Assembly: GCA_902776195.1 (NCBI GenBank)
Contig: CACYPF010000004.1
Location: 91,115 to 155,114, forward strand
Reading direction: 5' to 3'
Source of the DNA: an uncultured Prevotellaceae bacterium
GTDB lineage: Bacteria > Bacteroidota > Bacteroidia > Bacteroidales > Bacteroidaceae
DNA: 64,000 bases
Below the pieces are notes generated by a model. The model made no database searches, was not told the DNA's origin, and was given only the letters and a program-made list of their open reading frames with translations. A program made the position numbers and the translations under genes. Shown here one piece after another: positions 7,124-23,409 of the stretch. The stretch's first letter is position 1. Every line of letters starts with the position of its first letter.

Positions 7124-7683
7124 GTCCAGAACTCTTCAAGTCGTACTTCAAAGATCAGTGTACTGTAAGCGGGAATCTCACCATTGTCCACTGTGCCATA
7201 TCCCATCTGATAGGGAACGGCGATGACCCAATGGTCACCCTTATGCATTTTCAGCAAGGCAGTGGTCAGACCTGTCACGACACCATTGACGGCAAACTTC
7301 CTGGGGACTGCCGTATCCCAGTCGAAGGGTTCCAGATAACTCTGGTCAAACTGGTATCCTGCCGAGTATGACGGTGACGGGATCAGGTTTCCCACATAAT
7401 GGATCTGCACGGTATCGTTCAGATAAGGTGTTGCCTCCGGGGCATCCTCTTCACTGGACACCTCTTTCACCAGCACATAATCAGAATACTTGGTGGAAGT
7501 CTCATCCGTCAGGGAGTATTTCAGCAATGCCTGGTCATATTCATGAGCAAGGAAGGCAGCCTCGAAAAACTTCTCGTTCTTGTTCTTCCAGTCGGCATAC
7601 TCCACGATGGCATCGTCTTTCTCACTGCACGACACAAGGACGAGCAGTGAGAGACAGGCGATGATGTATTGCTTGATATTCAT
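7099..7683 (-). CDS. FKBP-type peptidyl-prolyl cis-trans isomerase lipoprotein
   Basis: A 194-residue envelope protein. The N-terminus is a lipoprotein signal (MNIKQYIIACLSLLVLVSC) with the lipobox LVSC, so Cys19 should be acylated. The C-terminal half is an FKBP domain with VQIHYVGNL, FDQSY, VVTGLTTALLKMHKGD and PYQMGYG. These are the family's core positions, and the fold catalyses cis-trans isomerisation at proline. It starts 6 bases after the glyQS stop and is probably co-transcribed with it. An acidic stretch (VSSEEDAPEATPYL) precedes the domain. Confidence 0.9.
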   Translation of the reverse strand: MNIKQYIIACLSLLVLVSCSEKDDAIVEYADWKNKNEKFFEAAFLAHEYDQALLKYSLTDETSTKYSDYVLVKEVSSEEDAPEATPYLNDTVQIHYVGNLIPSPSYSAGYQFDQSYLEPFDWDTAVPRKFAVNGVVTGLTTALLKMHKGDHWVIAVPYQMGYGTVDNGEIPAYSTLIFEVRLEEFWTKRKGDRY

Positions 7684-7689
7684 TATTTA

Positions 7690-9231
7690 CTATTGTAATT
7701 TCTTTAGCAGACTGGCGATGCTTACCTTATCCTCGATGATAGCGGCGAGGTCTGAGATATTCACACGCTCCTGCTCCATAGTGTCACGGAAGCGGAGGGT
7801 CACCTTGCCATCGTTGAGTGAGTCATGGTCGACGGTGACGCAGTACGGGGTACCGATAGCGTCCTGACGACGATAGCGCTTACCAATAGAGTCTTTCTCA
7901 TCATACTGGCAGTTGAAGTGGAACTTCAGATCGTTGATGATCTCACGTGCCTTCTCGGGCAGACCGTCTTTCTTGACCAGCGGCATCACGGCGAGTTTCA
8001 CAGGTGCCAGTGCTGCAGGCAGTTTCAGTACCACACGGGTCTCCCCATTCTCGAGTTTCTCCTCGCAGAACGAGTGACACATGATAGAGAGGAACATACG
8101 GTCGACACCGATAGAGGTCTCGATGACGAACGGTGTATAGCTCTCGTTGGTCTGTGGGTCGAAGTATTTGATGCTCTTGCCAGAGTATTTCTCATGCTGC
8201 GAGAGGTCGAAGTTCGTACGGGAGTGGATACCCTCCACCTCCTTGAAACCGAAAGGCATCTTGAACTCGATGTCGGTAGCGGCATTGGCATAGTGAGCGA
8301 GCTTTTCGTGGTCGTGGAAACGGTAGTTCTCTGCACCGAAGCCCAGTGCCTGGTGCCATGCCATACGGGTCTGCTTCCACTTGGGGAACCACTCCAGCTC
8401 GGTACCGGGTGCTACGAAGAACTGCATCTCCATCTGCTCGAACTCACGCATACGGAAGATGAACTGACGTGCCACGATCTCGTTGCGGAATGCCTTACCG
8501 ATCTGTGCGATACCGAAAGGAATCTTCATACGTCCCGTCTTCTGCACGTTCAGGTAGTTGACGAAGATACCCTGTGCCGTCTCAGGACGCAGGTACACCT
8601 TCATACTGCCGTCGGCACTGGCGCCCATCTCCGTGGAGAACATCAGGTTGAACTGGCGCACGTCGGTCCAGTTGCGGGTACCGCTGATAGGACATACGAT
8701 CTCCTCGTCGAGGATAATCTGCTTCAGCTCGTCCAGGTCGGGTCCCTGCATGGCAGCGGCATAGCGGGCATGCAGCGCGTCACGCTTCTCCTTGGTCTCC
8801 TTCACACGCTCTGAGGTCTCCATATACTTCGCCTCGTCAAAACTGTCACCGAAACGCTTGCGTGCCTTCTCCACCTCTTTCTGGATCTTCTCGTCATACT
8901 TGGCGATCTGGTCCTCGATGAGCACGTCAGCACGATAGCGCTTCTTGGAGTCGCGGTTGTCGATAAGGGGGTCGTTGAAAGCGTCCACGTGTCCGGAAGC
9001 CTTCCATATAGTGGGGTGCATAAAGATGGCGGAGTCGATACCCACGATATTCTCGTGCAACAGGACCATTGACTTCCACCAGTATTCCTTGATATTATTC
9101 TTCAACTCCACGCCGTTCTGACCGTAGTCATACACAGCGCCTAATCCATCGTAGATTTCACTGCTGGGAAACACGAAACCGTACTCCTTGCAGTGGCTCA
9201 CGATTTTCTTAAATACATCTTCTTGTGCCAT
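7690..9231 (-). CDS. glyQS: Glycine--tRNA ligase (dimeric, eukaryote/archaeal type)
   Basis: A class II synthetase of 513 residues charging tRNA-Gly. Motif 2 is visible as GKAFRNEI followed by FRMREFEQMEMQFF. Motif 3 is SIGVDRMFLSIM, and the catalytic core holds RPETAQGIFVNY. The C-terminal anticodon-binding domain begins near LAPVKLAVMPLV. A longer reading frame reaches 9273, but the start at 9231 (MAQEDVFKKIV) was chosen because the promoter box 9262-9270 lies inside that extension and the family normally starts at this point. The FKBP lipoprotein gene follows at once. Confidence 0.96.
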   Translation of the reverse strand: MAQEDVFKKIVSHCKEYGFVFPSSEIYDGLGAVYDYGQNGVELKNNIKEYWWKSMVLLHENIVGIDSAIFMHPTIWKASGHVDAFNDPLIDNRDSKKRYRADVLIEDQIAKYDEKIQKEVEKARKRFGDSFDEAKYMETSERVKETKEKRDALHARYAAAMQGPDLDELKQIILDEEIVCPISGTRNWTDVRQFNLMFSTEMGASADGSMKVYLRPETAQGIFVNYLNVQKTGRMKIPFGIAQIGKAFRNEIVARQFIFRMREFEQMEMQFFVAPGTELEWFPKWKQTRMAWHQALGFGAENYRFHDHEKLAHYANAATDIEFKMPFGFKEVEGIHSRTNFDLSQHEKYSGKSIKYFDPQTNESYTPFVIETSIGVDRMFLSIMCHSFCEEKLENGETRVVLKLPAALAPVKLAVMPLVKKDGLPEKAREIINDLKFHFNCQYDEKDSIGKRYRRQDAIGTPYCVTVDHDSLNDGKVTLRFRDTMEQERVNISDLAAIIEDKVSIASLLKKLQ

Positions 9232-11903: not shown

Positions 11904-14468
11904 TCAGAAGCTAAACGCTATTACATATCTCATACCCCATTTCGGACTCGTCGGCAGGTCGTTATAGTTCAACCGGCGAACATACTCCACATGGAAGAAC
12001 TTGAAGATGTTATGGATGCCCAGAACAATCTCAGCATAAGGACGGTCCGGATCCATGACATGAGAGCCCTTTGGGAAATACATCAGACGATGATTGCCCG
12101 CATTCTCAGGCAGGAACGGGTTGTTCTTGTCGGAGAGTTCACCCCACAGCATGCGTACACCGATATATTCACGCCAATGCAGTTTGTTAAGCAGTGGGAT
12201 ACGGTTGAATATCTTACCGTTCAGGTCCCATGACACCATCAGCGACGCGAAACGGTCATTGAGGAACTCCATCGTATTGATAAGGTTGAAAGTCTCCGGC
12301 AGGATAACATACGACTGGTTGGCAGCAGGATGAATCAAGAGCGGATAAGGTACCTGATTCCACTGCATACCTCCCTTCAGGGAGATGTCGAGTTTACCCC
12401 AACTACTCAGCCAAAAGCGCTTGTAGATATGCAGTTCTGTGTAGTTATAAGAATACTGTCCCCCGAAGACACCGTCGAAGCCCATTGTATGAGAGACGCT
12501 GAATACAGGAGCGTCAAGGTTGATGACACGACGGCGCAACTTATTATTGATATACGTCTCACCAGGGGCATAGCGTAGTTTTGCCGTCACCTCAGTGGTG
12601 CGCATATACTCTCCGTTTCCCGTCCTGAAGAACTCCTCACGGGGTGCGCTATTCAGTGCACGGAAAGACATCTTGCCACATGCCTCGTTCTCCTCCAGTT
12701 TTCCAATCAGCGTAGCCTTTAATCCCCAGTCAGTCTCATAATCGAAGGTCACCTGCTGACGGTTATAGTACATCATCTTATCCGTATCAGCCCATTTGAA
12801 CGCCACCATGAAGTTATCCTTATCGGTGTCCATGAAGCGGTCGCCCGGTGAACATACGTCACGTGCCACCTGGATGCTCATGGTACGCCTCGGGAACTCA
12901 TGCGGCAAGTATTTCTTCGGGTTGATGGAATAGGTGAACTCCGCATTATAATAGTTCTGATGACTGCCCCATCCACGACCATAGTAACCTGACAGGAAGA
13001 AATGCTTCGAGAGGTTGGCAGTGGTCTTCAGACTCAGTCGGCTGCGCCATCCGTCAACGTAGTTATGCGACAGGATCGTGTTGACTGGACAGATATCGAT
13101 ATAGTTGGGCGTATTCGTCTCTATCGAGTTCTCAAAGAGCGCCTTCAGTCCGAAGATGACATACTTCATGCCTTTGATATTCTCGATGCGGTGGATGAAC
13201 TTATCCATCGAACCCTCGCTCTTAGTCAGCTCCACCTGCCGATACTGGTTCCAGAAAGCGTCATCACGCATCTGCGCATCCGCCTCCGTCACCTCAGGAG
13301 CTAAGCCACGGAACAGCTTCTTGGGAATAGGGTCAAAAGCATAATCCCTCATGCGGGTTGTACGAGTCACTATCAACTGACGCATGAAACTCAGCAGCTC
13401 CAGCTCTGTCGACATGTCATCCTTCGTCAGCACCCACTGTCCGTTAGGCAGTTTCTCATACTCCTGCAATATCTTCACGTTCTTCACGAAGTTGACGTTA
13501 CTCTGCTTCGGAATCGTCATCTCACAACGGCGGACATGCAAGGTGGAATCCTTGAGAATATAAAGGTCACCACGGAAGCCCATGTCATTCTGATTGTTAG
13601 GAAGGAAATGCAGATGAATACAACTGTCCCGCTCAATAGCCAGCGTGTCCTCGATATAATAGCGGTAGAAACCGATACCCTCCTTGGAGATAGGCGAGAT
13701 AAAGGGATACTGCAACAGACGGATATGGTCCTGATAAAGGTCGATATCAGTAAACACATCCTTGATGACCGTATTGACGATATCACCAGTCTGGAAGATA
13801 TTGTTCACACCCTTCGACGACTGTCCCTGGATAATGACTTTCTCCGAATGGGGGTCTTTGCGGTAAACCTTCTGCGAGACCGTCTCATCGACACTCACCG
13901 GCAGGATCAGCTTGCCTGTGGCACTGCTCGTCTCCACCTGCTCTACCAGCCATGGGTGTTTCTTAAAGGGTCCCTGCTCCAACTGTTCGGGCTTCAGGTC
14001 ATTGAGTGACGTGGTGATTTTCTCGTATTTATTATACTGATAATAGTCGTTGACAGCGAGGTCAGTCTTTTTCTTCGCTTCCACTACTCTCTTCATCAGC
14101 TCGACAGCTGGATTATTCTTACGGCTATAGCGACTACGCTTTGCCTTAACAGTCACCTCTGCCAGCATCTGCCTATCAGGTTTCAATGCGACATTCAGTT
14201 TCGCCTTTGTCTTGGCGTTGACATTGATGATACGCGTTTTGTAGCCTACAGCACTGAATGTGATATTCCATCCCTCATGACGTGCTATAGAGTAACGGCC
14301 CTCACCATTGGAGATCACATTGATATGGTGACCCTTATATACCACACTGGCATAGGGGATACTGTCACCAGTCTCGGCATCAGTGACATAACCTGTAATC
14401 TGCTGGGCGTGAATTTCCACTCCCAACAGACAGATGATACTTAGTAGATATACTTTCAGTTTCGTCAT
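11904..14468 (-). CDS. DUF5686 outer-membrane protein with carboxypeptidase-like regulatory domain
   Basis: An 854-residue exported protein. A signal peptide (to about residue 22, ending EIHAQ) is followed by a carboxypeptidase-regulatory-like beta domain (ITGYVTDAETGDSIPYASV) of about 90 residues, as in TonB-dependent receptors. DUF5686 follows and fills the rest. The second half is rich in alternating aromatic strands and ends in the aromatic residue of MRYVIAFSF, which suggests a beta barrel in the outer membrane. It is the last gene of the ketosynthase operon, 3 bases after the LolA-like gene. Its function is not known. The context suggests a part in placing the operon's product in the outer membrane. 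Confidence 0.82.
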   Translation of the reverse strand: MTKLKVYLLSIICLLGVEIHAQQITGYVTDAETGDSIPYASVVYKGHHINVISNGEGRYSIARHEGWNITFSAVGYKTRIINVNAKTKAKLNVALKPDRQMLAEVTVKAKRSRYSRKNNPAVELMKRVVEAKKKTDLAVNDYYQYNKYEKITTSLNDLKPEQLEQGPFKKHPWLVEQVETSSATGKLILPVSVDETVSQKVYRKDPHSEKVIIQGQSSKGVNNIFQTGDIVNTVIKDVFTDIDLYQDHIRLLQYPFISPISKEGIGFYRYYIEDTLAIERDSCIHLHFLPNNQNDMGFRGDLYILKDSTLHVRRCEMTIPKQSNVNFVKNVKILQEYEKLPNGQWVLTKDDMSTELELLSFMRQLIVTRTTRMRDYAFDPIPKKLFRGLAPEVTEADAQMRDDAFWNQYRQVELTKSEGSMDKFIHRIENIKGMKYVIFGLKALFENSIETNTPNYIDICPVNTILSHNYVDGWRSRLSLKTTANLSKHFFLSGYYGRGWGSHQNYYNAEFTYSINPKKYLPHEFPRRTMSIQVARDVCSPGDRFMDTDKDNFMVAFKWADTDKMMYYNRQQVTFDYETDWGLKATLIGKLEENEACGKMSFRALNSAPREEFFRTGNGEYMRTTEVTAKLRYAPGETYINNKLRRRVINLDAPVFSVSHTMGFDGVFGGQYSYNYTELHIYKRFWLSSWGKLDISLKGGMQWNQVPYPLLIHPAANQSYVILPETFNLINTMEFLNDRFASLMVSWDLNGKIFNRIPLLNKLHWREYIGVRMLWGELSDKNNPFLPENAGNHRLMYFPKGSHVMDPDRPYAEIVLGIHNIFKFFHVEYVRRLNYNDLPTSPKWGMRYVIAFSF

Positions 14469-14471
14469 TGA

Positions 14472-14969
14472 TTATTTCTTGAAGGTATATTCCATATAGC
14501 CTCCACTTCTGTCATTCATGCGCAGGGTCTTGAAGGTTGAGGTCTTGGTATCGACAACCAATACGAACGAGGTAAACATCTGGCGTTTCTTACCTGTCGG
14601 GGTAATGGTAATCGTCTCCACTCCACCATTCTTGGTTACGGTAAGATTGTCACCTGCCGGTATCGGGCTACCGTTGATGACTGCCTCCAAAACAGCTTGG
14701 AATGTAGCGAACATCGGGTTACGACGACTATCTGTCACATGTTTCTTCTTACCCATTGTCATCGTGAACTTCGTCCCATCCATGATGAGTTGGTCACGAT
14801 TTTCATCTGTAGAGATACAGACGTATGACGGTTTACGAATCGTCAATGTACCAGTAGTTACCACATCTGTCTTCAGTGCTTTCTTATGTGTTACCTTAGT
14901 AACGGTTTGTGCATTTACACTTGCAAAACATGCAAATAGACAGAACAAGAATAAAACAATCTTTTTCAT
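14472..14969 (-). CDS. LolA-like periplasmic carrier protein
   Basis: A 165-residue secreted protein with a cleavable signal (MKKIVLFLFCLFACFASVNAQ). The mature part is a single beta-rich domain resembling LolA/LppX lipid-binding folds: TGTLTIRKPSYVCIST, then LIMDGTKFTMTMGKK and a closing GYMEYTFKK. Such LolA-like proteins are regular members of aryl polyene and flexirubin clusters, where they are thought to carry the lipid-like product across the periplasm. The start overlaps the end of the ketoreductase gene by 4 bases. It is unlikely to be the general LolA for lipoproteins, given the operon. Confidence 0.75.
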   Translation of the reverse strand: MKKIVLFLFCLFACFASVNAQTVTKVTHKKALKTDVVTTGTLTIRKPSYVCISTDENRDQLIMDGTKFTMTMGKKKHVTDSRRNPMFATFQAVLEAVINGSPIPAGDNLTVTKNGGVETITITPTGKKRQMFTSFVLVVDTKTSTFKTLRMNDRSGGYMEYTFKK

Positions 14970-15685
14970 GTGTATAGTCCTCCATTAATTGAAATAACAT
15001 TACCTGTAATATATCCTGCATTAGGGGAAACAAGGAAAGCCACCAAGTCAGCGACTTCCTCTGGATTACCGAAACGGTTGGCGGGAATTGTCTTCTTCAA
15101 AGCAGCCTCATCCAAGCCCTCCGTCATATCCGTCTTAATGAAACCGGGTGCTACCGCATTGACGGTAACGTTCTTACGGGCTACTTCCTGCGCCAGTGCC
15201 TTGGTGGCTGCAATAATTCCACCCTTTGCCGCAGAATAGTTGGTCTGACCAGGGAGTCCCTTCAGTCCACTGACACTTGCCATATTGATAATACGCCCGA
15301 ATTTATGCAACTGCATAGCTGGCAACAAAGGCTGCGTCACATTAAAGAAACCGGAGAGGGTGATATCCAAGACACGATGCCAATCTGCCTCTGGCATCAA
15401 TGCCATGACGTTGTCGCGACGGATACCCGCATTATTCACCAACACCTCGATATAATCCTCGGGATGCTGCTGCTGCCATCCCTGTAATGCCTCACGCGTC
15501 TGCTCAGCATTGCTGACATCAAAGGGAAGCAACTCACCCTGTCCTTGTATTTGCTCAAGCGTCTTCTCTGCTTCTGCCTGATTACTGGCGTAATTGATAA
15601 CGACCTGATAGCCATCCTTTGCCAGTCTTGCCACGATGGCACGTCCGATACCCCGGCTGCCACCTGTTACTAATGCATATTTCAT
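14966..15685 (-). CDS. 3-oxoacyl-ACP reductase (FabG-type SDR)
   Basis: A short-chain dehydrogenase of 239 residues. The NADPH loop is TGGSRGIGRAI at residues 7-17. The catalytic set is Ser in NMASVSGLKG and Tyr-x3-Lys in NYSAAKGG, and the C-terminal INGGLYT end is usual for FabG. It would reduce 3-ketoacyl-ACP to 3-hydroxyacyl-ACP. The position between the LolA-like gene and the FAD oxidoreductase places it in the specialised chain-building operon. In aryl polyene clusters the equivalent reductase supplies the step before dehydration. I therefore leave the symbol fabG off. Confidence 0.9.
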   Translation of the reverse strand: MKYALVTGGSRGIGRAIVARLAKDGYQVVINYASNQAEAEKTLEQIQGQGELLPFDVSNAEQTREALQGWQQQHPEDYIEVLVNNAGIRRDNVMALMPEADWHRVLDITLSGFFNVTQPLLPAMQLHKFGRIINMASVSGLKGLPGQTNYSAAKGGIIAATKALAQEVARKNVTVNAVAPGFIKTDMTEGLDEAALKKTIPANRFGNPEEVADLVAFLVSPNAGYITGNVISINGGLYT

Positions 15686-15714
15686 TTTCTTTTCCTTTAT
15701 TATTCGTTATTATA

Positions 15715-17028
15715 TTATCTCGTTATACCGATATTCAGTATGTAATCTGTCGTTTGTCTGGCAGTCATAGCCACTCCCTCCAGTCCATGCAGCATCACGT
15801 TCTGCCCTGTCAACAACAGATTGCCGAGAGGGGTACGGGGTGACAACATGGTCAGCAATGGCTGGCGACAGTCTTTCCGTATTCCATAAGCCGAGCCGTC
15901 GGGGGTATTCGTAAACCGCTCCCATGTATGGGGTGTACTGACATACTCTTCGCTGACCATGTCCCGCAACCCTGGGATTACCTTTTGCGCCAATGCCATC
16001 GGATGACTGCTGCAGGGAGTCATCAAATCAAGGAGCGTCGCATAGTATGAGCCGTTTTCCGGAACTCTGCAACTTAACAAGACCTTCTCCGTAGCCTCAT
16101 CCCATACACTTCCACCCTCATACACAAACTTATTGTGATTAAAATACGGAAGTGTGTCGGGTTTCAACACCAGCGAATAGGTGTACATCCCATAAGTATT
16201 CTCCAGCATCGCCATACGAGTACGGAAAATCTTCTTCAGTACCTTACTCTCTTTAACGAGGGCAAATGTCTGGGCAGGATGTATGTCACTGATAAAGAGA
16301 CGACCCTCATAGCGCTCTCCGTTTTCACACTTAGCAGCAACGATTTGTCCGTCCTGCTCTACCAGTTCCACAACTTTTGCACGACAGATCACATCACCGC
16401 CCATGTGCTTAATATCATCCACCAATGAACGCACGATCAAGCCACTGTCACCTTTCAGACGCCAACTGCTTTGAATATAGCTTTTCTGGCTATGGGCAAA
16501 GGCAAATAATGGTAATGACTCACGGCGCAACTCCGTCTTTAGACAAGAGCCAGACAAGACATCAATCAACAGTGGATCACTGAAAGTCTCGTTCAGCCAC
16601 TGCCACGCATTGACAGAAGGGTCGGGATCCGGTCCCTGCAGCATATCGACATATTTCCTCAATGCCTCACGCTGCTGGGGGAAGTCCGTTGCCAGAACTT
16701 CCACGAAATGGTCGAAGCCCTGTGCCAGACAATAAGTATTCCCCTCAATGGTTATTTGGTCGGCACCATCCACATCCAACCTGTACCAAGGAAGTCGTAA
16801 AAGACCTAACTGTTCGAAAATGTCATGTAAAGACTCTCCATCTCCCAGTCCACCGACATAATGCAGTCCAGTGTCAAAGGCATGCCCCTTGCGCTGATAG
16901 CTCTGCATGCATCCACCCGGCTGCCAATGAGACTCCAGTACAAGGACATGGTATCCTTTCTTTGACAACAACTGAGCGCAAGCCAGTCCGCCAAATCCAC
17001 TCCCTATGACAATGACATCGTACTTCAT
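15715..17028 (-). CDS. FAD-dependent oxidoreductase of the CrtI/RetSat type
   Basis: A flavoprotein of 437 residues. The N-terminal dinucleotide motif is VIGSGFGGLACAQLLSKKG followed by LESHWQPGGCMQSY, as in phytoene desaturases, carotenoid isomerases and RetSat. The C-terminal FAD motif is LLTGQNVMLHGLEGVAMTA. Such enzymes dehydrogenate, saturate or isomerise polyene chains. In this operon the likely substrate is the acyl or polyene product, not a carotenoid, because no phytoene synthase gene is present in the window. It overlaps the MMPL gene by 4 bases. The reaction direction cannot be told from sequence. Confidence 0.82.
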   Translation of the reverse strand: MKYDVIVIGSGFGGLACAQLLSKKGYHVLVLESHWQPGGCMQSYQRKGHAFDTGLHYVGGLGDGESLHDIFEQLGLLRLPWYRLDVDGADQITIEGNTYCLAQGFDHFVEVLATDFPQQREALRKYVDMLQGPDPDPSVNAWQWLNETFSDPLLIDVLSGSCLKTELRRESLPLFAFAHSQKSYIQSSWRLKGDSGLIVRSLVDDIKHMGGDVICRAKVVELVEQDGQIVAAKCENGERYEGRLFISDIHPAQTFALVKESKVLKKIFRTRMAMLENTYGMYTYSLVLKPDTLPYFNHNKFVYEGGSVWDEATEKVLLSCRVPENGSYYATLLDLMTPCSSHPMALAQKVIPGLRDMVSEEYVSTPHTWERFTNTPDGSAYGIRKDCRQPLLTMLSPRTPLGNLLLTGQNVMLHGLEGVAMTARQTTDYILNIGITR

Positions 17029-19493
17029 TGTTTCTGTTTATTAAGCCATCGGAAAATGGCTGGTTGAAGAACGTATGACAGTATCACAGCCGAAAGGAGT
17101 CCTACGAGTGTTGAGAAGCCTACAGAGCGTATTGCAGGATGAGAGGCTATCAACATACTGCTGACGGTTGTTATCAAGGTGACGGCACTCAGGAATATCG
17201 CTGTCTTATGGAAGGTCAGTTTCTGTTGGTTTTGATGAATGAGCCCATCCATCACAAATATACTATAATCCACACCAATACCAAAGATAAAGGTGGAGAT
17301 GATGATACTGATGAGATTAAAGCGGATGTCAAACAACACCATGGCTCCTAACACAATCATCCAGCTAAGCAGAATGGGCAAGAAACCCAGGACGGTGTAT
17401 TTCAGGTTGAAATGGAAACTGAACAGCAGGACGACAAAGACAAATGCCATAGACAACCATTGCAGCACATTGAAGTCCTCACTCATCCGCAGTAAAGTAT
17501 CTGTTGTATAATAATAGGTGTCAAGAATAAGCAGTTCCGGACGCTGTGCGATAGCGTCACAGATGCGGATATAGTCGCTCTCACTGCTCCGCACGCTATC
17601 GTTCACACAACGGACAGACGTGAAACACAGGAAACTGCCGTCATACGACTGTTCCATTAAGGTCGACTGATAACCAGCTGGTATCAGATTCGCGTTGTAA
17701 AGGGCATCTGGCTGATAATCCTCTGCCACTTTCTCAAAAAAGGTGTCAAAAGCGTCTTGGCTCAGTCCTGCCTGAGATGCGGTCTCGGCAATCAGATGAC
17801 GAACCTTCGAAAGCCGTTCCTCTGTCCAATAGGCTTTCCAGGCATCAATGCGCTGCTGTTGCACGGACAATGGTACGAATATCTGATTGGTATGGGTATA
17901 ACTCTTCACCAGTCCTAACTGCTGCAGTGAATCAAGTTTCTGATCCAGTAAGGCAAAGTTCGCAATTGCCTCTTCCATAGTTTTTCCCTTACTGGCGAAG
18001 TATTTTTGTTTATCCCCGGTATACGTCTTGTCACGTAAGACCTGTTCAGAATGCTCCGTGAGCTCTGCCTCATAGCCAAGGTTATGCATGTCTGCGTCAA
18101 AACGGGTTCCTCCCACGAAATAAGCACCAATGCAGACTGCCATCAGAGCCACGATAACGACCAACAAAGACTTCTTCCGGTCAAAAGGATAGGTATTAAT
18201 AGTGTCTATCCATGCAAAAGAGTGTTTCGCTGTCTGTTCTTTTCTCAAGAATTGGGGCAGGTAAGTCAAGCTGAACAAGGTTGTACCAAGAATAGCAAAG
18301 GCTGCGAAGAGTCCGAAATCACGCAACAGGTCTGTCTGTATAAAGATAAGCCCCGCAAAGGAGCCGATTGTCGTCAGACAGCCCAACCATACAGGCTTCA
18401 CCTGATCGTGTAACATCTTCTCCACATCACCCACGTACCGCTGATGGGTCATCACATGCAACACATAACTGAGTGCTACCCCCAAAACGACACCTCCAAT
18501 TCCCAGGGCGAGCAAAGAGAATTGTCCTTTGATGAAATACATCATCGTCAATCCGAAGAGTGTTCCAAAGATGACAGGCAGTAATAATAATGGGATGGTG
18601 TCCCATCTGCGAAAACTCACGAAAAGGAACACTAACACCAGAACAAGTGCGCCGGTAATGGTCGTCGTCAGGTCACGCTTGATTTGTGAGGAGTTATAAT
18701 AGCCGCTGGCTGGAGTACCATGGTAAGTGATACGCACATCGGGATGACTCTTAGCAAATTCCTTGATCTGCTCATTCATCATCTCAAAAAGCGCTGAGCC
18801 CTGTCCAGTGTTCGTGGCAGAGAAACGGGGAGTTATAAAAGCAAGACAGACAGTTGAGTCAGGCACGAAGAAATGGCCATTGATTGTCTTATAACTACCT
18901 GTTCCTCCATTCAGTAACGGACTGAACTGTTCTGCAAGGACATCACGCATGCCCATGGGGTCCATCTGTATCAACTCCGGAAACAGTCCACCAATCTCAC
19001 TCTGCAGGTCATTGTAGTTCTGCTGCATCTGACGCACGAAATGCTCGTGCGTCAACAAGGTATCGAAGCGGGCATAGACGGTCGTATCGATATAGGCAGG
19101 GAAATGCGTAGAAAGATAATCCACACCATCCACCATCAGGTCTTCGGGCAGTTGGTAAAACACATCTCCTATCGTATGGCTCAACGAGTCACGCTGTAAG
19201 AGGGTGTCAACAAACTGGTCACATATTTCCGACAGTTGCACAGGATCCTTACTGTCTCCACTTAAACTCTCAAACAACAAGAAAGTCTTGTCCTTGATTT
19301 TCAAGTCGGCAAAGGCAAGTTTGATGCTCCCGTCCTCATTCTTCGATGATGGCATCAACTTATCGATATCCTCTTCCAGATGGATGCGGGATGCAAACCA
19401 GCCAAAGAAGACGAAGAGTACAACCATTGATAACCAGCAGACCAGCTGATGGTTGCGGAAATATTGATATAACCTGATGAAAAAGTCCGTCAT
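17025..19493 (-). CDS. MMPL/RND-family exporter
   Basis: An 822-residue inner-membrane protein with the RND/MMPL layout: helix 1 (QLVCWLSMVVLFVFFGWFA), a large periplasmic domain of roughly 230 residues, a block of five helices, a second helix and periplasmic domain, and a final five-helix block. Conserved features include VLGVALSYVLHVM and FGIGVDYSIFVMDG, the latter carrying the Gly-Asp-Tyr motif linked with proton use in MmpL proteins. MMPL exporters of aryl polyene-type clusters are thought to move the lipid product to the periplasm, to be met by the LolA-like carrier. It overlaps genes on both sides by 4 bases. Confidence 0.88.
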   Translation of the reverse strand: MTDFFIRLYQYFRNHQLVCWLSMVVLFVFFGWFASRIHLEEDIDKLMPSSKNEDGSIKLAFADLKIKDKTFLLFESLSGDSKDPVQLSEICDQFVDTLLQRDSLSHTIGDVFYQLPEDLMVDGVDYLSTHFPAYIDTTVYARFDTLLTHEHFVRQMQQNYNDLQSEIGGLFPELIQMDPMGMRDVLAEQFSPLLNGGTGSYKTINGHFFVPDSTVCLAFITPRFSATNTGQGSALFEMMNEQIKEFAKSHPDVRITYHGTPASGYYNSSQIKRDLTTTITGALVLVLVFLFVSFRRWDTIPLLLLPVIFGTLFGLTMMYFIKGQFSLLALGIGGVVLGVALSYVLHVMTHQRYVGDVEKMLHDQVKPVWLGCLTTIGSFAGLIFIQTDLLRDFGLFAAFAILGTTLFSLTYLPQFLRKEQTAKHSFAWIDTINTYPFDRKKSLLVVIVALMAVCIGAYFVGGTRFDADMHNLGYEAELTEHSEQVLRDKTYTGDKQKYFASKGKTMEEAIANFALLDQKLDSLQQLGLVKSYTHTNQIFVPLSVQQQRIDAWKAYWTEERLSKVRHLIAETASQAGLSQDAFDTFFEKVAEDYQPDALYNANLIPAGYQSTLMEQSYDGSFLCFTSVRCVNDSVRSSESDYIRICDAIAQRPELLILDTYYYTTDTLLRMSEDFNVLQWLSMAFVFVVLLFSFHFNLKYTVLGFLPILLSWMIVLGAMVLFDIRFNLISIIISTFIFGIGVDYSIFVMDGLIHQNQQKLTFHKTAIFLSAVTLITTVSSMLIASHPAIRSVGFSTLVGLLSAVILSYVLQPAIFRWLNKQKQ

Positions 19494-19903
19494 TGCATGT
19501 ATATTTTCAAGTCCACTTCAGCAACGGTCTCATCCCCTAAGGAGGAAACACCGTGTGCCAAGGTCATATTACCAAACGAGAATCCGAAAGTGACAACCGT
19601 ATGTATCTGTTCATTAACCTGCGGACGACGATGACAACAGAAATTTTTCACTTCCACAATCATGCCGATAGGTGCCGTGTCATCATTCACCTTGGAGGCT
19701 GCGAGGGCAGAACACGACTGGGCTATATGTTCTATCAGCCCAGTCGGTGATATCATGCCATCAGGCAACAAGAAATAATTACCTCTGCCCACAGTCAGTG
19801 CTGTCTTCGCCGAGTTCTCATCCTGTTGCTCAAATTCGTCGACCATCATAAAGGGGTCGCGCTGCGGAATCAATCGCTTGATATCGTCGCCTCTGAGGAT
19901 CAT
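19490..19903 (-). CDS. Hotdog-fold 3-hydroxyacyl-ACP dehydratase-like protein with Gln in place of catalytic His
   Basis: A 137-residue single hotdog domain of the FabZ/ApeP kind. Where FabZ has LPHR-x-PF with the catalytic His, this protein reads LIPQRDPFMMVDE, so residue 14 is Gln (codon CAG). The partner acidic residue is kept as Glu58 in GLIEHIAQS, on the central hotdog helix. Dehydration normally needs both residues. The protein may therefore work slowly, have a different reaction (for example thioesterase), or bind without catalysis. It lies between the ACP and MMPL genes with 4-base overlaps, so a role on ACP-bound chains remains likely. Confidence 0.78.
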   Translation of the reverse strand: MILRGDDIKRLIPQRDPFMMVDEFEQQDENSAKTALTVGRGNYFLLPDGMISPTGLIEHIAQSCSALAASKVNDDTAPIGMIVEVKNFCCHRRPQVNEQIHTVVTFGFSFGNMTLAHGVSSLGDETVAEVDLKIYMQ

Positions 19904-20145
19904 GCTGGCAAGTGTTGCTCAATATAATCGTACAGGTTGTTGAATGTCTGAATCTGGTGCAGCTCATTCACTGGGATGGTAATCTTATAAGTCACCTGTA
20001 CCAAAGCGATAAGGTCTACCAGGTTGATACTGTCCAGCTGAAGTGTATCCTTCAGGTTGGCATCAGGAGTAAACTCACTCTGTTCTACTTCAAACTCTTC
20101 TGAGAGCAGTCCATTAACCTGCTCGATGATCTCTTCTCTTGTCAT
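19900..20145 (-). CDS. Acyl carrier protein
   Basis: An 81-residue acidic helical carrier. The phosphopantetheine site is Ser39 in LQLDSINLVDL, preceded by TPDANLKDTL as in other ACPs. Helices 2 and 3 follow, and the end is LYDYIEQHLPA. It holds the growing chain for the neighbouring ketosynthase, ketoreductase and hotdog protein. It is one of the few short proteins of the operon, starts 49 bases after the ketosynthase stop and overlaps the hotdog gene. It is not next to fabF/fabD, so it is a pathway-specific ACP and not the housekeeping AcpP. Confidence 0.93.
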   Translation of the reverse strand: MTREEIIEQVNGLLSEEFEVEQSEFTPDANLKDTLQLDSINLVDLIALVQVTYKITIPVNELHQIQTFNNLYDYIEQHLPA

Positions 20146-20194
20146 AATTTTCTAATTTTAAAAGTTTTGTTATTCTGTTATTTCTATATTCCGA

Positions 20195-21418
20195 CTAAAG
20201 ATTCTTCACGATAAGCGTTGAATTAGTACCACCAAATCCGAAAGAGTTACTGAGGAAGGTGTCAAAATGTGCTTCAATGGTCTCTGGGACGACATTCACA
20301 CAAGCTGTCTCATCATCAGGATTCTCGAAATTAATGTTACCTGCGATAAAGTCGTTTTTCATCATCAGCATGGTATAGATAATCTCAGAAGCACCAGCCA
20401 TCCACATCTCATGACCCGTCTGACTCTTGGTAGAGGTAACAGGTACACGATAGTCACCGAATATCTGAGCGATAGCCTGAGCCTCACGACTGTCTCCGAT
20501 CTTCGTGGAAGTGGCATGGGCATTGACATAACCGATTTCCTTGACATCCACACCGCTCTTCTCCAGACAAAGTTCCAGAGAACGTGCCGGACCTGCCACA
20601 TTGGGGGTAGAGATATGGTCACCATTACCTGAGAATCCCCAGCTTACGATTTCCGCAAGGATAGGAGCACCACGACGGACAGCACTCTCGTAATCCTCTA
20701 TCACCAAGGTCGCTGCACCACCACCAGGAACGAGTCCGTTACGGTCACGGTCGAAAGGACGACTTGCCTTTGTGGCATCGTTATCCTCACGAAGGGCAAA
20801 CGACTGGATACCGTCGAAAGAGGCGACACCATACATGTTTGCCTCTTGCGCACCACCACAGACCACACAGTCTTGCAATCCGTTCTTAATCAACAGATAG
20901 CCTAACCCGATGGACTGTGAGCCGGAAGCGCAGGCTGCTGACGCTGTCAGATTGATACCTTTCAGATGGAACAGACATGCGAGGTTCATCGTTACCGTGG
21001 AGTTCATTGACTGGAAGATGGCACCACTTCCACAGGCTGCTGTAGAACCAAACTGGCGGAACTTATCAAGGGCACGCATGGTAGCCTCAGCAACAGAGTC
21101 GTTACCATAGATGATTCCCACCTCATGCTGGTCGATATAGTCTTGTTCCAGACGGGCACTTGCCAAAGCATCACGGGTTGCCATATAAGCATACTGTGCC
21201 TCCTCCGGCATGAACTGTCTGAAGTTACGATTAACAAAAGGTTTCAAGTCTGCTTTGGGCACATCAGCACAGAACGGTGAGCGGAACCCCGCATCCACAC
21301 GCTCCTGACTAAAGATGATACCACTCTTTCCTTCATACAGGGACTGGCGCACCTCATCAAGGGTCGTACCGAGGCACGACCAGATACCCATTCCTGTGAT
21401 TACTACTCTTCTTTCCAT
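20195..21418 (-). CDS. Beta-ketoacyl-ACP synthase (FabF-like), single KS of the operon
   Basis: A condensing enzyme of 407 residues extending ACP-bound chains with malonyl units. The Cys-His-His set is intact: Cys163 in SAACASGSQS, His in NAHATSTKIGD and His in TKSQTGHEMWMAGASE, with the KS lysine in the last motif. The end FLSNSFGFGGTNSTLIVK is the usual KS glycine loop. Aryl polyene and type II polyketide systems usually pair such a KS with a second, Cys-less chain-length factor. None is present here, so this KS would have to act alone or with an enzyme encoded elsewhere. It lies 3 bases after the acyltransferase-like gene. Confidence 0.92.
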   Translation of the reverse strand: MERRVVITGMGIWSCLGTTLDEVRQSLYEGKSGIIFSQERVDAGFRSPFCADVPKADLKPFVNRNFRQFMPEEAQYAYMATRDALASARLEQDYIDQHEVGIIYGNDSVAEATMRALDKFRQFGSTAACGSGAIFQSMNSTVTMNLACLFHLKGINLTASAACASGSQSIGLGYLLIKNGLQDCVVCGGAQEANMYGVASFDGIQSFALREDNDATKASRPFDRDRNGLVPGGGAATLVIEDYESAVRRGAPILAEIVSWGFSGNGDHISTPNVAGPARSLELCLEKSGVDVKEIGYVNAHATSTKIGDSREAQAIAQIFGDYRVPVTSTKSQTGHEMWMAGASEIIYTMLMMKNDFIAGNINFENPDDETACVNVVPETIEAHFDTFLSNSFGFGGTNSTLIVKNL

Positions 21419-21421
21419 TTC

Positions 21422-22555
21422 TTATATTATCTTTTTATAACATCTTCTACGTTTTACAAACTGCGGATGCAGAGGTTTCCATTGTGACAACTCACGGACA
21501 TTGTCCTCCAACTGCGGACCTGTCTCTGCCCACTTGAATCCATATTTATTATAAATAGGTATAAGGTCGTCAAAGAACATGGCGTTCACACCCAGTCCCT
21601 GATAGTCTGGACGGACAGCAATCAGCAACATCTCCGCATTATCCTCATGATGCCATTTCAGTGCTTTCAGCAGATGGAACCAACCAAAGGGCAGCAACGT
21701 GCCGTGAGCTTTCCGCATCGATACCGACAGGCTTGCCATGGAGATGGCAGCCCCCACCACCTCGTCTTTATCGTTCAGGACGACTGGGATGAGTTGTTTA
21801 TCCACCATCCGAAGGTATTTATGGATAAACACGTCTATCTGACGGGCTGACAATGCCGAGAAGCCGAAAATAGGTTTGTATGCCTCGTTCAACAATTCGA
21901 ACACGCGATGTCCGTAACCTTCCTCGTTAATCTGCTTGTCTGTCAACTTGACGACCCGTAATCCTATCTGCTCACGGGCATATTGGGCAACACGGGCATA
22001 CCGTGCCGGTACTTCCTTGGGAATATCAATATGTACCTGCAGCCAGTCCACTTCCTTCTCGAAACCCAGTGCCTCCATGTGACGATGATAATACTCGGGA
22101 TTATATATGGTATTCATGGAGCCCATGAGGTTGAAATCCTCCACAAGCATACCCTCCTTATCGAAGTCCGTAATACCCAACGGTCCTTGCAGCATATCCA
22201 TTCCCTGGGCTCTTCCCCACTCCTCTACAGCATGAAGCAAAGCATTCGACACCTTCAGGTCATCGACAAACTCAATCATCGAGAACCGAACATTTTTCGT
22301 CTTCCAATGTTTGTTAGCCTTTCGGTTGACAATACCTACGATACGCCCCACAGGCTTACCATCCTGATAAGCGACGAAAGGCTGGATATCAGAGAATTCC
22401 AACCCCGGATTCTTCTGACTGTCAAAAAGTTGACGCACATCAGACTCCAGGTCAGGGACGTACTGGGTACATCCCTCATATATGTCCTTCACCACATGGA
22501 TGAAATCATTCATTCCCTGCCGGTTCTCAACTTTCTTGATAATCACCTCACTCAT
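21422..22555 (-). CDS. GNAT-related acyltransferase-like protein
   Basis: A 377-residue protein with two GNAT-like stretches. The N-terminal half contains VAYQDGKPVGRIVGIVNRKAN and DMLQGPLGITDFDKEGMLV. The C-terminal half contains VVLNDKDEVVGAAISMAS and LIAVRPDYQGLGVNAMFFDDL, the latter resembling the acetyl-CoA loop (V-R-P-x-Y-x-G-x-G). This is a recognisable family of long N-acetyltransferase-like proteins with no clear substrate. Its ATG overlaps the stop of the AraC gene (ATGA), and the ketosynthase gene follows after 3 bases, so it should act on the operon's product or its starter. An acyl-ACP-dependent reaction is a guess. Confidence 0.72.
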   Translation of the reverse strand: MSEVIIKKVENRQGMNDFIHVVKDIYEGCTQYVPDLESDVRQLFDSQKNPGLEFSDIQPFVAYQDGKPVGRIVGIVNRKANKHWKTKNVRFSMIEFVDDLKVSNALLHAVEEWGRAQGMDMLQGPLGITDFDKEGMLVEDFNLMGSMNTIYNPEYYHRHMEALGFEKEVDWLQVHIDIPKEVPARYARVAQYAREQIGLRVVKLTDKQINEEGYGHRVFELLNEAYKPIFGFSALSARQIDVFIHKYLRMVDKQLIPVVLNDKDEVVGAAISMASLSVSMRKAHGTLLPFGWFHLLKALKWHHEDNAEMLLIAVRPDYQGLGVNAMFFDDLIPIYNKYGFKWAETGPQLEDNVRELSQWKPLHPQFVKRRRCYKKII

Positions 22556-23409
22556 CGCACCACCCTTTTATGTTCCACACGGTATTCCATCGGGGTCACA
22601 TTAGCCTGTTCACGGAAATACTGGCTAAAGAACGAAGAGTTAGGGAATCCTAACTTGTTGGAGATTTCCTTGATGCTCATATCGGTATCCTTCAACAGAG
22701 AATAACAATCCTGCATCGTACTCTCCGTAATCCATCGCATAGGGTTCTTGCCACTGACTTTCTTAGAAATGGAAGAAAGGTACTTGGGGGTAATATGCAA
22801 TTGGTCGGCATAGAAAGCTACCCGCTGACGTTTCTGCTCCTGACTGGACAACAACTGCAAGAACTGGTTGAATATTTCTTTATCGTGGATGCTCGAGGTA
22901 TCTGTATTCAGTGCCATGTCCTCATGACGCAGCAGTTCCTCACATACCATCAGCAACATCGTACGCAAGAACGACACCATGATCTCACGTGACAGCAAAG
23001 GCATTTTCTCTATCTTAAAGACCGTACGGGTATACTTCTGTATACCACCTAACCAGTCATTACCTTCTACCACATAAATCTCACGCATGTACATTGCCTT
23101 GTTCCAGATATTAATCTGGTTACCCAACACCGACTTTAGCATACGGTCAGATATCAACAGTGCCGAAGCCTCTGTATCTGCACTAACGAGCATTGGCTCC
23201 ATCAGCTTGCCGGCGGGCATCAACAGCAATTGCCCTGGGACGACCTTCACTTGATGACTTCCCCCCATCTCCACGACAATACGCCCACCACGACAATGTA
23301 CAATGGAATTATAAGACTTCCTGACGTAGGGTAAGTCTTTGGCATCTCTTAAGTTGTCCACAAAGAGAATCTCGTCTCCCATCGCATGGACAATATTCAA
23401 TTCTTGCAT
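22552..23409 (-). CDS. AraC-family transcriptional regulator heading the ketosynthase operon
   Basis: A 285-residue regulator. The first roughly 170 residues form an AraC-type sensing cupin (GGRIVVEMGGSHQVKVVPGQ, LLMPAGKLMEP). The last 100 form the double helix-turn-helix with ADQLHITPKYLSSISKKVSG and NKLGFPNSSFFSQYFREQ, then VTPMEYR. A TTG at 23433 would lengthen the protein but lies on the promoter box 23430-23438, so the ATG at 23409 is the start. As the first gene of the operon, joined to the next by an ATGA overlap, it is likely to control its own operon in response to an unknown small molecule. Confidence 0.88.
   Translation of the reverse strand: MQELNIVHAMGDEILFVDNLRDAKDLPYVRKSYNSIVHCRGGRIVVEMGGSHQVKVVPGQLLLMPAGKLMEPMLVSADTEASALLISDRMLKSVLGNQINIWNKAMYMREIYVVEGNDWLGGIQKYTRTVFKIEKMPLLSREIMVSFLRTMLLMVCEELLRHEDMALNTDTSSIHDKEIFNQFLQLLSSQEQKRQRVAFYADQLHITPKYLSSISKKVSGKNPMRWITESTMQDCYSLLKDTDMSIKEISNKLGFPNSSFFSQYFREQANVTPMEYRVEHKRVVR

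Follow-up and report, generated by a model that had tools for sequence, protein, structure and literature searches.

What does the ten-gene operon in this stretch of DNA make, and is it a cut-down copy of the aryl polyene (APE) and flexirubin clusters that its genes recall, or a system in its own right? The stretch, here called the window, comprises 64,000 nucleotides from an uncultured Prevotellaceae bacterium (GenBank assembly GCA_902776195.1, contig CACYPF010000004.1, positions 91,115 to 155,114), and the operon consists of ten consecutive minus-strand genes running from 23409 to 11904. On balance, we favor reading it as a compact, stand-alone relative of the APE synthases, by which a polyene chain would be built, joined and exported outward, with the ketoreductase (KR) and the dehydratase (DH) pooled with the APE cluster where a genome has both. 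A preliminary description had placed ten genes with small gaps or overlaps here, which the coordinates and the Pfam and NCBIfam classes bear out: five junctions are 4-base overlaps and the others are gaps of 3, 49, 29 and 3 bases. Nine of its gene classes were confirmed by Pfam, whereas the hotdog protein had no Pfam match and only a weak FabZ match in NCBIfam; the protein called acyltransferase-like is a GNAT. The genes are as follows, with Ape reference proteins taken from a stretch of Escherichia coli CFT073 and gene letters assigned by order as in PMC8253772 (this and the other papers given by PMC number are cited from excerpts).

22552..23409, minus strand: AraC-family regulator, first gene (Pfam HTH_18, 3.9e-18), overlapping the GNAT gene by 4 bases
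21422..22555, minus strand: tandem-GNAT acyltransferase, YghO-related (candidate ceramide N-acyltransferase family), the proposed release enzyme
20195..21418, minus strand: ketosynthase (KS), FabB/ApeR-like, catalytic C163-H301-H336 (ApeR 34%, 196 bits; ApeO 30%, 114 bits)
19900..20145, minus strand: dedicated acyl carrier protein (ACP; Pfam PP-binding, 2.8e-11)
19490..19903, minus strand: hotdog DH, ApeP-like, with a conserved Glu and no GHFP His (33% to the DH of the cluster on contig C9)
17025..19493, minus strand: MMPL/RND-type exporter, HpnN/ApeM-like (Pfam MMPL; NCBIfam HpnN below cut-off)
15715..17028, minus strand: CrtI/CrtISO-like flavoenzyme (NAD_binding_8; CrtD and carotenoid-isomerase matches below cut-off)
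14966..15685, minus strand: KR of FlxB/ApeQ type (NCBIfam FlxB 395.5 bits, cut-off 340; ApeQ 49%)
14472..14969, minus strand: LolA-like periplasmic carrier (Pfam LolA 34.7 bits, cut-off 23.6)
11904..14468, minus strand: DUF5686 protein, probable outer-membrane barrel, with a CarbopepD_reg_2 domain (PF18939 183 bits, cut-off 39.2)

The arrangement is not due to chance: other genomes carry it in the same order at 80 loci, as far as contig ends, which interrupt some of the loci, permit. A scan of GTDB genomes gave 223 confirmed relatives, of which these are the best 80, a choice that disfavors divergent operons; the 80 loci amount to 79 genomes because two loci (L105 and L113; genomes, contigs and loci are given here as G, C and L numbers) lie in one, Prevotella sp. 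UBA2742, whose two operon copies are respectively with and without a KR. The conserved order spans Prevotella, Bacteroides, Parabacteroides and Caecibacteroides, and the listing of these 80 loci contains no additional KS match. The CrtI-like flavoenzyme is kept in 80/80 operons (in L081 as a fragment at the contig end), the ACP in 79/79 assessable operons, the GNAT in 76/77, the KS in 77/78 and the LolA in 75/79; an AraC match was found in 41/74. Carriers are mostly Prevotella or Prevotellaceae metagenome-assembled genomes (MAGs), many with the names of ruminant organs or with RUG codes, which we take to denote rumen genomes; others are Bacteroides sp. GM023, Parabacteroides acidifaciens 426-9, Caecibacteroides pullorum AN421 and Prevotella sp. 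tf2-5. In a survey of the MMPL across 149 genomes (90 of the same genus, including the window's own, and 59 from other families of the order), 20 genomes of the genus had a match of considerable length at ≥60% identity, G068 added a short fragment, and the best match among the 59 outside it reached 41%.

The preliminary description had noted that lyase, ligase, second KS and glycosyltransferase are absent, which holds for the operon (a starter ligase was sought in its gene list and by Pfam), and had proposed a search of the remaining genome. That search recovered the ligase, further KSs and a glycosyltransferase-like gene on contig C9, by whose gene content the genome (2.97 Mb, 93.6% complete) has a flexirubin/APE-type cluster beside the compact operon. 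Of five Ketoacyl-synt_C places in the genome, three are on C9, one belongs to the operon on C4, and the one on C6 we read as a general FabF. The first 22.8 kb of C9 code for an AMP ligase, a thioesterase, ACPs, an MMPL-acyltransferase fusion, a pair of CrtI-like proteins, two long KSs (593 and 559 aa), a shorter one (KS387; 33% to ApeR), a hotdog DH, a FlxB KR (400 bits), a LolA2_flexi protein (225 bits, cut-off 125), a methyltransferase (44% to ApeB), a glycosyltransferase-like protein (34% to ApeJ), and HtrB-like and PlsC-type proteins; KS387 and the last four were named by Ape likeness or our own reading, and ten proteins of this cluster were scanned against family models.

The aromatic ammonia-lyase family PF00221 was the part of that search that came back empty, with no match in the window's own 93.6% complete genome. 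It is present in 9/73 genomes (6/47 APE-bearing and 3/26 others) and in 5/14 control genomes, and a lyase was rejected as the source of the starter on account of the 9/73. Its absence is not diagnostic, because the family is so sparse among APE-bearing genomes and because APE synthesis in E. coli is predicted to begin from 4-hydroxybenzoate (PMC8253772). None of 22 genomes searched with DarB exceeded the 550-bit cut-off (own genome 27.9, best 40 bits; DarA was not searched); 21 of the 22 had weak matches only, and no control genome passed. With no lyase and no DarB over the cut-off, we rejected flexirubin as the product.

The relation between the two loci was followed with the 559-aa C9 KS (the chain-length factor, CLF) as APE marker, a single gene that can be missed in drafts, sought in the genomes of all 80 loci. 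It was not found for 40 of the loci, and in 37 of these 40 the operon has its own KR and DH. Where the operon KR is absent (n=32), the marker is present in 29 cases and was not found in 3 (L080, L113 and L151); where it is present (n=47), the marker is present in 10 and was not found in 37 (Fisher p 5e-10, not corrected for kinship; L081 was not assessable). On a quick MMPL tree (LG+G4, without mixture model) the KR state changes at least 15 times. Its well-supported branches gave 11 independent pairs; on average the marker differed as expected in 7.9 of them, contrary to expectation in 0.2, and was the same in both members in 2.9 (sign test, median p 0.016, range 0.002–0.125). As for the three exceptions, the genome of L080 has the rest of the APE cluster without the marker gene, that of L113 holds the second, complete operon L105, and that of L151 has a FlxB-type KR elsewhere.

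A substitute KR is nearly always at hand. Among 33 genomes in which the operon KR is lacking or could not be assessed, 32 have exactly one FlxB-type KR elsewhere (E ≤1e-60). Its identity to the window's KR is 61–69% in 30 genomes, 81% in G168, where it belongs to a second operon, and 83% in G223. The exception is G150, in which the operon contig stops before the KR position. All eight control genomes, in which the operon has its KR and the marker is missing, contain exactly one such KR, 86–97% identical. In many of the fetched APE stretches the KR adjoins the KS387 gene. Across the operon genes, only absence of the KR (p 3e-9) and of the DH (p 1e-4) tracks the marker, in a specificity control with stricter KR assessability (26 absent with marker vs 29); absence of the AraC, LolA or DUF5686 gene had no association with it. 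The two pathways therefore seem to act on similar beta-keto polyene intermediates. They seem to differ in carrier, release and export, since the operon retains its ACP, CrtI-like, MMPL and LolA genes even though counterparts of all four occur in APE clusters.

For the DH, a profile of 27 sequences (A3, with E. coli ApeP included by choice and the L228 protein left out for a stop within its matched range) was searched in 44 genomes: the window's own, 40 marker-positive ones, G149, G168 and G224. Every one of the 44 has at least one match. The operon DH is absent in 17 genomes, all of which have one elsewhere (a single match in 16, two in G149; L143, not assessable, was not counted). Conversely, the sole DH of eight genomes (G165, G166, G167, G174, G216, G220, G221 and G226) is that of the operon, beside the operon KS, and none was found in their fetched APE stretches. 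Six of the 40 marker-positive genomes (G150, G160, G162, G163, G220 and G221) gave no KS387 match, and the operon KS is present in all six. As a control, APE stretches from five genomes of the same genus that have an APE cluster and no operon-type MMPL (G012, G016, G024, G032 and G044) hold KS387, KR and DH in 5/5; G076, with only an MMPL fusion and a PlsC-type match, was not counted. DH sharing thus seems to run both ways between the loci.

Such sharing would also suit an accessory arm of the APE pathway, in which the operon makes or attaches the second half of the large cluster's molecule. KS, KR and DH are indeed distributed over both loci, and the large-cluster stretches of G220 and G221 lack the short KS, KR and DH that the operon has (the KR was not searched genome-wide). 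We consider this explanation unlikely all the same, as it has to accommodate the 40/80 loci without the marker, 37 of which have KR and DH, and their carriers include Prevotella sp. tf2-5 (L076) and Parabacteroides acidifaciens 426-9 (L122), which are not titled MAG. The same loci bear on the suggestion that the operon is a reduced or degraded remnant of a flexirubin or APE cluster with no product of its own. Its gene number is below that of APE clusters, and KR and DH are missing from some operons; however, these losses fall where a substitute exists, and the KS has intact catalytic residues both in the window and in four further operons aligned with it. Because gene order is conserved across the four genera and stand-alone copies keep the full set, we rejected the remnant as very improbable; on this point the preliminary description is corrected, in that the operon does not resemble a degraded APE cluster.

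Kinship with the APE and flexirubin sets, which that description had also proposed, was upheld when the operon was compared with the E. coli Ape proteins and FlxB: the KR exceeds the FlxB cut-off, and the nearest Ape protein of the KS is ApeR, with ApeO second. Its Cys163, His301 and His336 sit in the usual motifs, and its nearest solved structures by sequence are FabB-type. ApeR is itself a homodimeric FabB-like KS that alone yields at most 4 double bonds, and ApeO-ApeC alone completes the chain (PMC8358021); with one KS the operon has no such KS–CLF pair, and a single ApeR-like enzyme without a CLF fits that short product. ApeR is needed for initiation in vitro (PMC8253772). At the position of Tyr135, the aryl-stacking residue of Acinetobacter ApeR (PMC8358021), the operon KS has Phe135; because E. 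coli FabF also has Phe there, the residue cannot separate an aryl from an alkyl starter. Against E. coli FabG, the lid of the operon KR is shorter by 3 residues, as is that of the C9 KR and of ten more Prevotella and Bacteroides KRs; that of E. coli ApeQ aligned one residue shorter, and the loop is described as 2–3 residues shorter in ApeQ than in FabG (PMC8041823).

These features have to be set against an unusual but otherwise ordinary fatty-acid module, making a saturated or hydroxylated chain for an N-acylated outer-membrane lipid and no polyene. The FabB-type structural neighbors of the KS, the link of the GNAT family to ceramide N-acylation and the lack of dedicated aryl starter genes would all agree with it. 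However, none of the ten genes encodes an enoyl reductase, the KR belongs to the FlxB type and has the short lid reported for ApeQ, and in marker-negative genomes this KR is retained or present elsewhere. The operon is probably not devoted to ordinary fatty-acid synthesis, and we regard the module as doubtful, somewhat more so than the accessory arm.

Compared with E. coli ApeP and ApeI, the DH had no BLAST match, for ApeP even at E 10, and it aligned with ApeP at 17%. Profile A3 matches solved FabA/FabZ-type DHs, best 6qsr_B (E 3e-23), presumably an APE dehydratase complex. In 10 of 14 loci examined (L066 is not among them), the DH and MMPL genes are separated by a second hotdog gene, ApeI-like and carrying a GHFPG motif (e.g., L123:9639-10004).

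The favored reading, a compact stand-alone relative of the APE synthases, suggests the following route. On the dedicated ACP, a homodimeric ApeR-type KS would extend a starter, with the FlxB/ApeQ-type KR and ApeP-like DH acting in each round and no enoyl reduction following, to give a short conjugated polyenoyl-ACP. The GNAT would then move the chain, most likely onto an amine such as an amino lipid or amino acid, and the CrtI-like flavoenzyme may isomerise or oxidise the polyene. The MMPL would raise the lipid from the inner membrane, the LolA ferry it across the periplasm and the DUF5686 protein act at the outer membrane; the preliminary description's genes for export in that direction are confirmed in that MMPL and LolA both exceed their Pfam cut-offs and DUF5686 is present. 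In genomes that also have a full APE cluster, KR and DH would act in trans, pooled between the two pathways. What the sequences show of this is the gene set, its conservation and homologies, and the occurrence of KR and DH in one locus or the other; the starter, chain length, amine acceptor, flavoenzyme reaction, destination and action in trans are inferred.

The GNAT is homologous to YghO over 324 aa (26% identical), with which it was compared directly, and is one of three such paralogs in the genome, the nearest one on C9 lying about 52 kb from the cluster there. YghO and CC_1154, the latter placed here by the literature only, are listed as the acyl-CoA N-acyltransferase of ceramide synthesis (PMC9386255). 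A profile of the GNAT brought up just two PDB chains (E 0.5 and 0.93), and such fold searches did not identify a donor or acceptor. That the product differs from the classical one, as the preliminary description supposed, is probable; that it is a new class of outer-membrane lipid, a polyene amide (e.g., a polyenoyl ceramide or amino lipid) formed when a specialised ceramide-synthase-like GNAT joins the chain to a sphingoid or other amine, is a tentative proposal. Rumen and gut Bacteroidota would then have two polyene pathways with a common KR and DH and with carriers, release enzymes and exporters of their own.

Several points weigh against the favored reading or its parts. The ApeR-only polyene synthesis on which it draws was an in vitro, aryl-starter system (PMC8358021), and an E. 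coli apeR deletion still makes the APE lipid (PMC8253772). The operon has no starter-loading gene. The window DH is without the FabZ His, and known APE DHs consist of ApeI paired with ApeP in a heterodimer that has a single active site (PMC8041823); no ApeI-like partner occurs in the window operon, the rest of the genome not having been searched. DH loss was not significantly associated with the marker on independent pairs, and most carrier genomes are draft MAGs. One operon, L106, has no GNAT gene, although its contig reaches 9.7 kb upstream of the MMPL. Many GNATs use acetyl-CoA, so N-acylation by a polyene is a guess.

Relative to APE clusters, the operon has an ApeR-like KS (34%), an ApeQ-like KR (49%), an ACP (31% to ApeF), an MMPL (18% to ApeM), a hotdog DH that can be aligned with ApeP and a LolA-family protein. 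It differs in lacking the ApeO/ApeC pair, the ApeH ligase, the ApeJ and ApeD acyltransferases and the methyltransferase, in having a GNAT, a CrtI-like protein and DUF5686 instead, and in that BLAST did not match its DH to ApeP or its LolA to ApeL; at E 10 the LolA matched neither E. coli ApeL nor the C9 LolA. With the flexirubin clusters (Chitinophaga pinensis flxA-Y; PMC3992019) it shares an FlxB KR over the cut-off, a LolA and an exporter, whereas the genome is without an aromatic ammonia-lyase, DarB falls below its cut-off and the operon LolA reaches 55.8 bits with LolA2_flexi, below the cut-off of 125. The C9 cluster resembles it in KS (51%), KR (60%), DH (33%), CrtI (31% and 25%) and MMPL (28%), and alone has the AMP ligase, two long KSs, and glycosyltransferase-like, methyltransferase and PlsC-type genes. 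The GNAT shares homology with YghO over most of its length, but unlike the putative ceramide N-acyltransferases YghO and CC_1154 it sits with a polyene-type synthase, in an operon without a serine palmitoyltransferase gene. The would-be chemical analogue is the ishigamide type, a reducing type II system whose product is a polyene amide. Streptomyces ishigamide involves a KS–CLF pair and is not known to be an outer-membrane lipid. Ishigamide-type polyenes are named in PMC8041823, and an "amide-containing polyene" appears in a title cited by PMC8358021.

The loss-and-borrow pattern hints at which enzymes are interchangeable between the two pathways, in agreement with the finding that FabG does not replace ApeQ in vitro (PMC8041823). 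Rumen genomes are rich in the larger system, with 2,800 APE clusters in 8,160 genomes (PMC8241843), and a smaller second system of polyene type in these bacteria, having no KS–CLF pair, could for that reason escape notice. A limited literature search on Prevotella and rumen aryl polyenes found no description of the operon, which is no proof of absence. Should the GNAT form polyene amides or polyenoyl ceramides, the product would be a new surface lipid of common gut bacteria.

Some further observations concern individual loci. Operon L139 (G164) lacks its KS, a 75% identical copy of which lies on another contig. In L094, on the same contig as L058, the GNAT match is split over two overlapping frames (about 7273-8345), so this gene is frameshifted or misassembled. 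KS387 of C9 (C9:20696-21859; L038:696-1859) is without 21 residues, including the second catalytic His, that are kept in the 17 other rows of its alignment (two of which, L042 and L226, seem to be one contig); the loss may be real or an assembly fault. The C9 CLF is 98–99% identical to those of G179 and G180, with only 86–88% for the operon MMPL, which suggests that the large cluster moved recently. By our own reading, relaxase-like and integrase-like open reading frames adjoin the C9 cluster (C9:23274-32088; L038). Bacteroides sp. GM023 (G194) is the only genome with a lyase on the APE contig, one of two copies, about 5 kb from the CLF gene; the second aromatic lyase of this genome, in L307 (G194:C33:290644-292059) near its APE cluster, may be a tyrosine ammonia-lyase. 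APE genes are scattered in several genomes (e.g., G151, G158, G159 and G160), and in G158 a lone APE CLF gene (L204:9701-11398) adjoins genes that we read as TamA/TamB-like.

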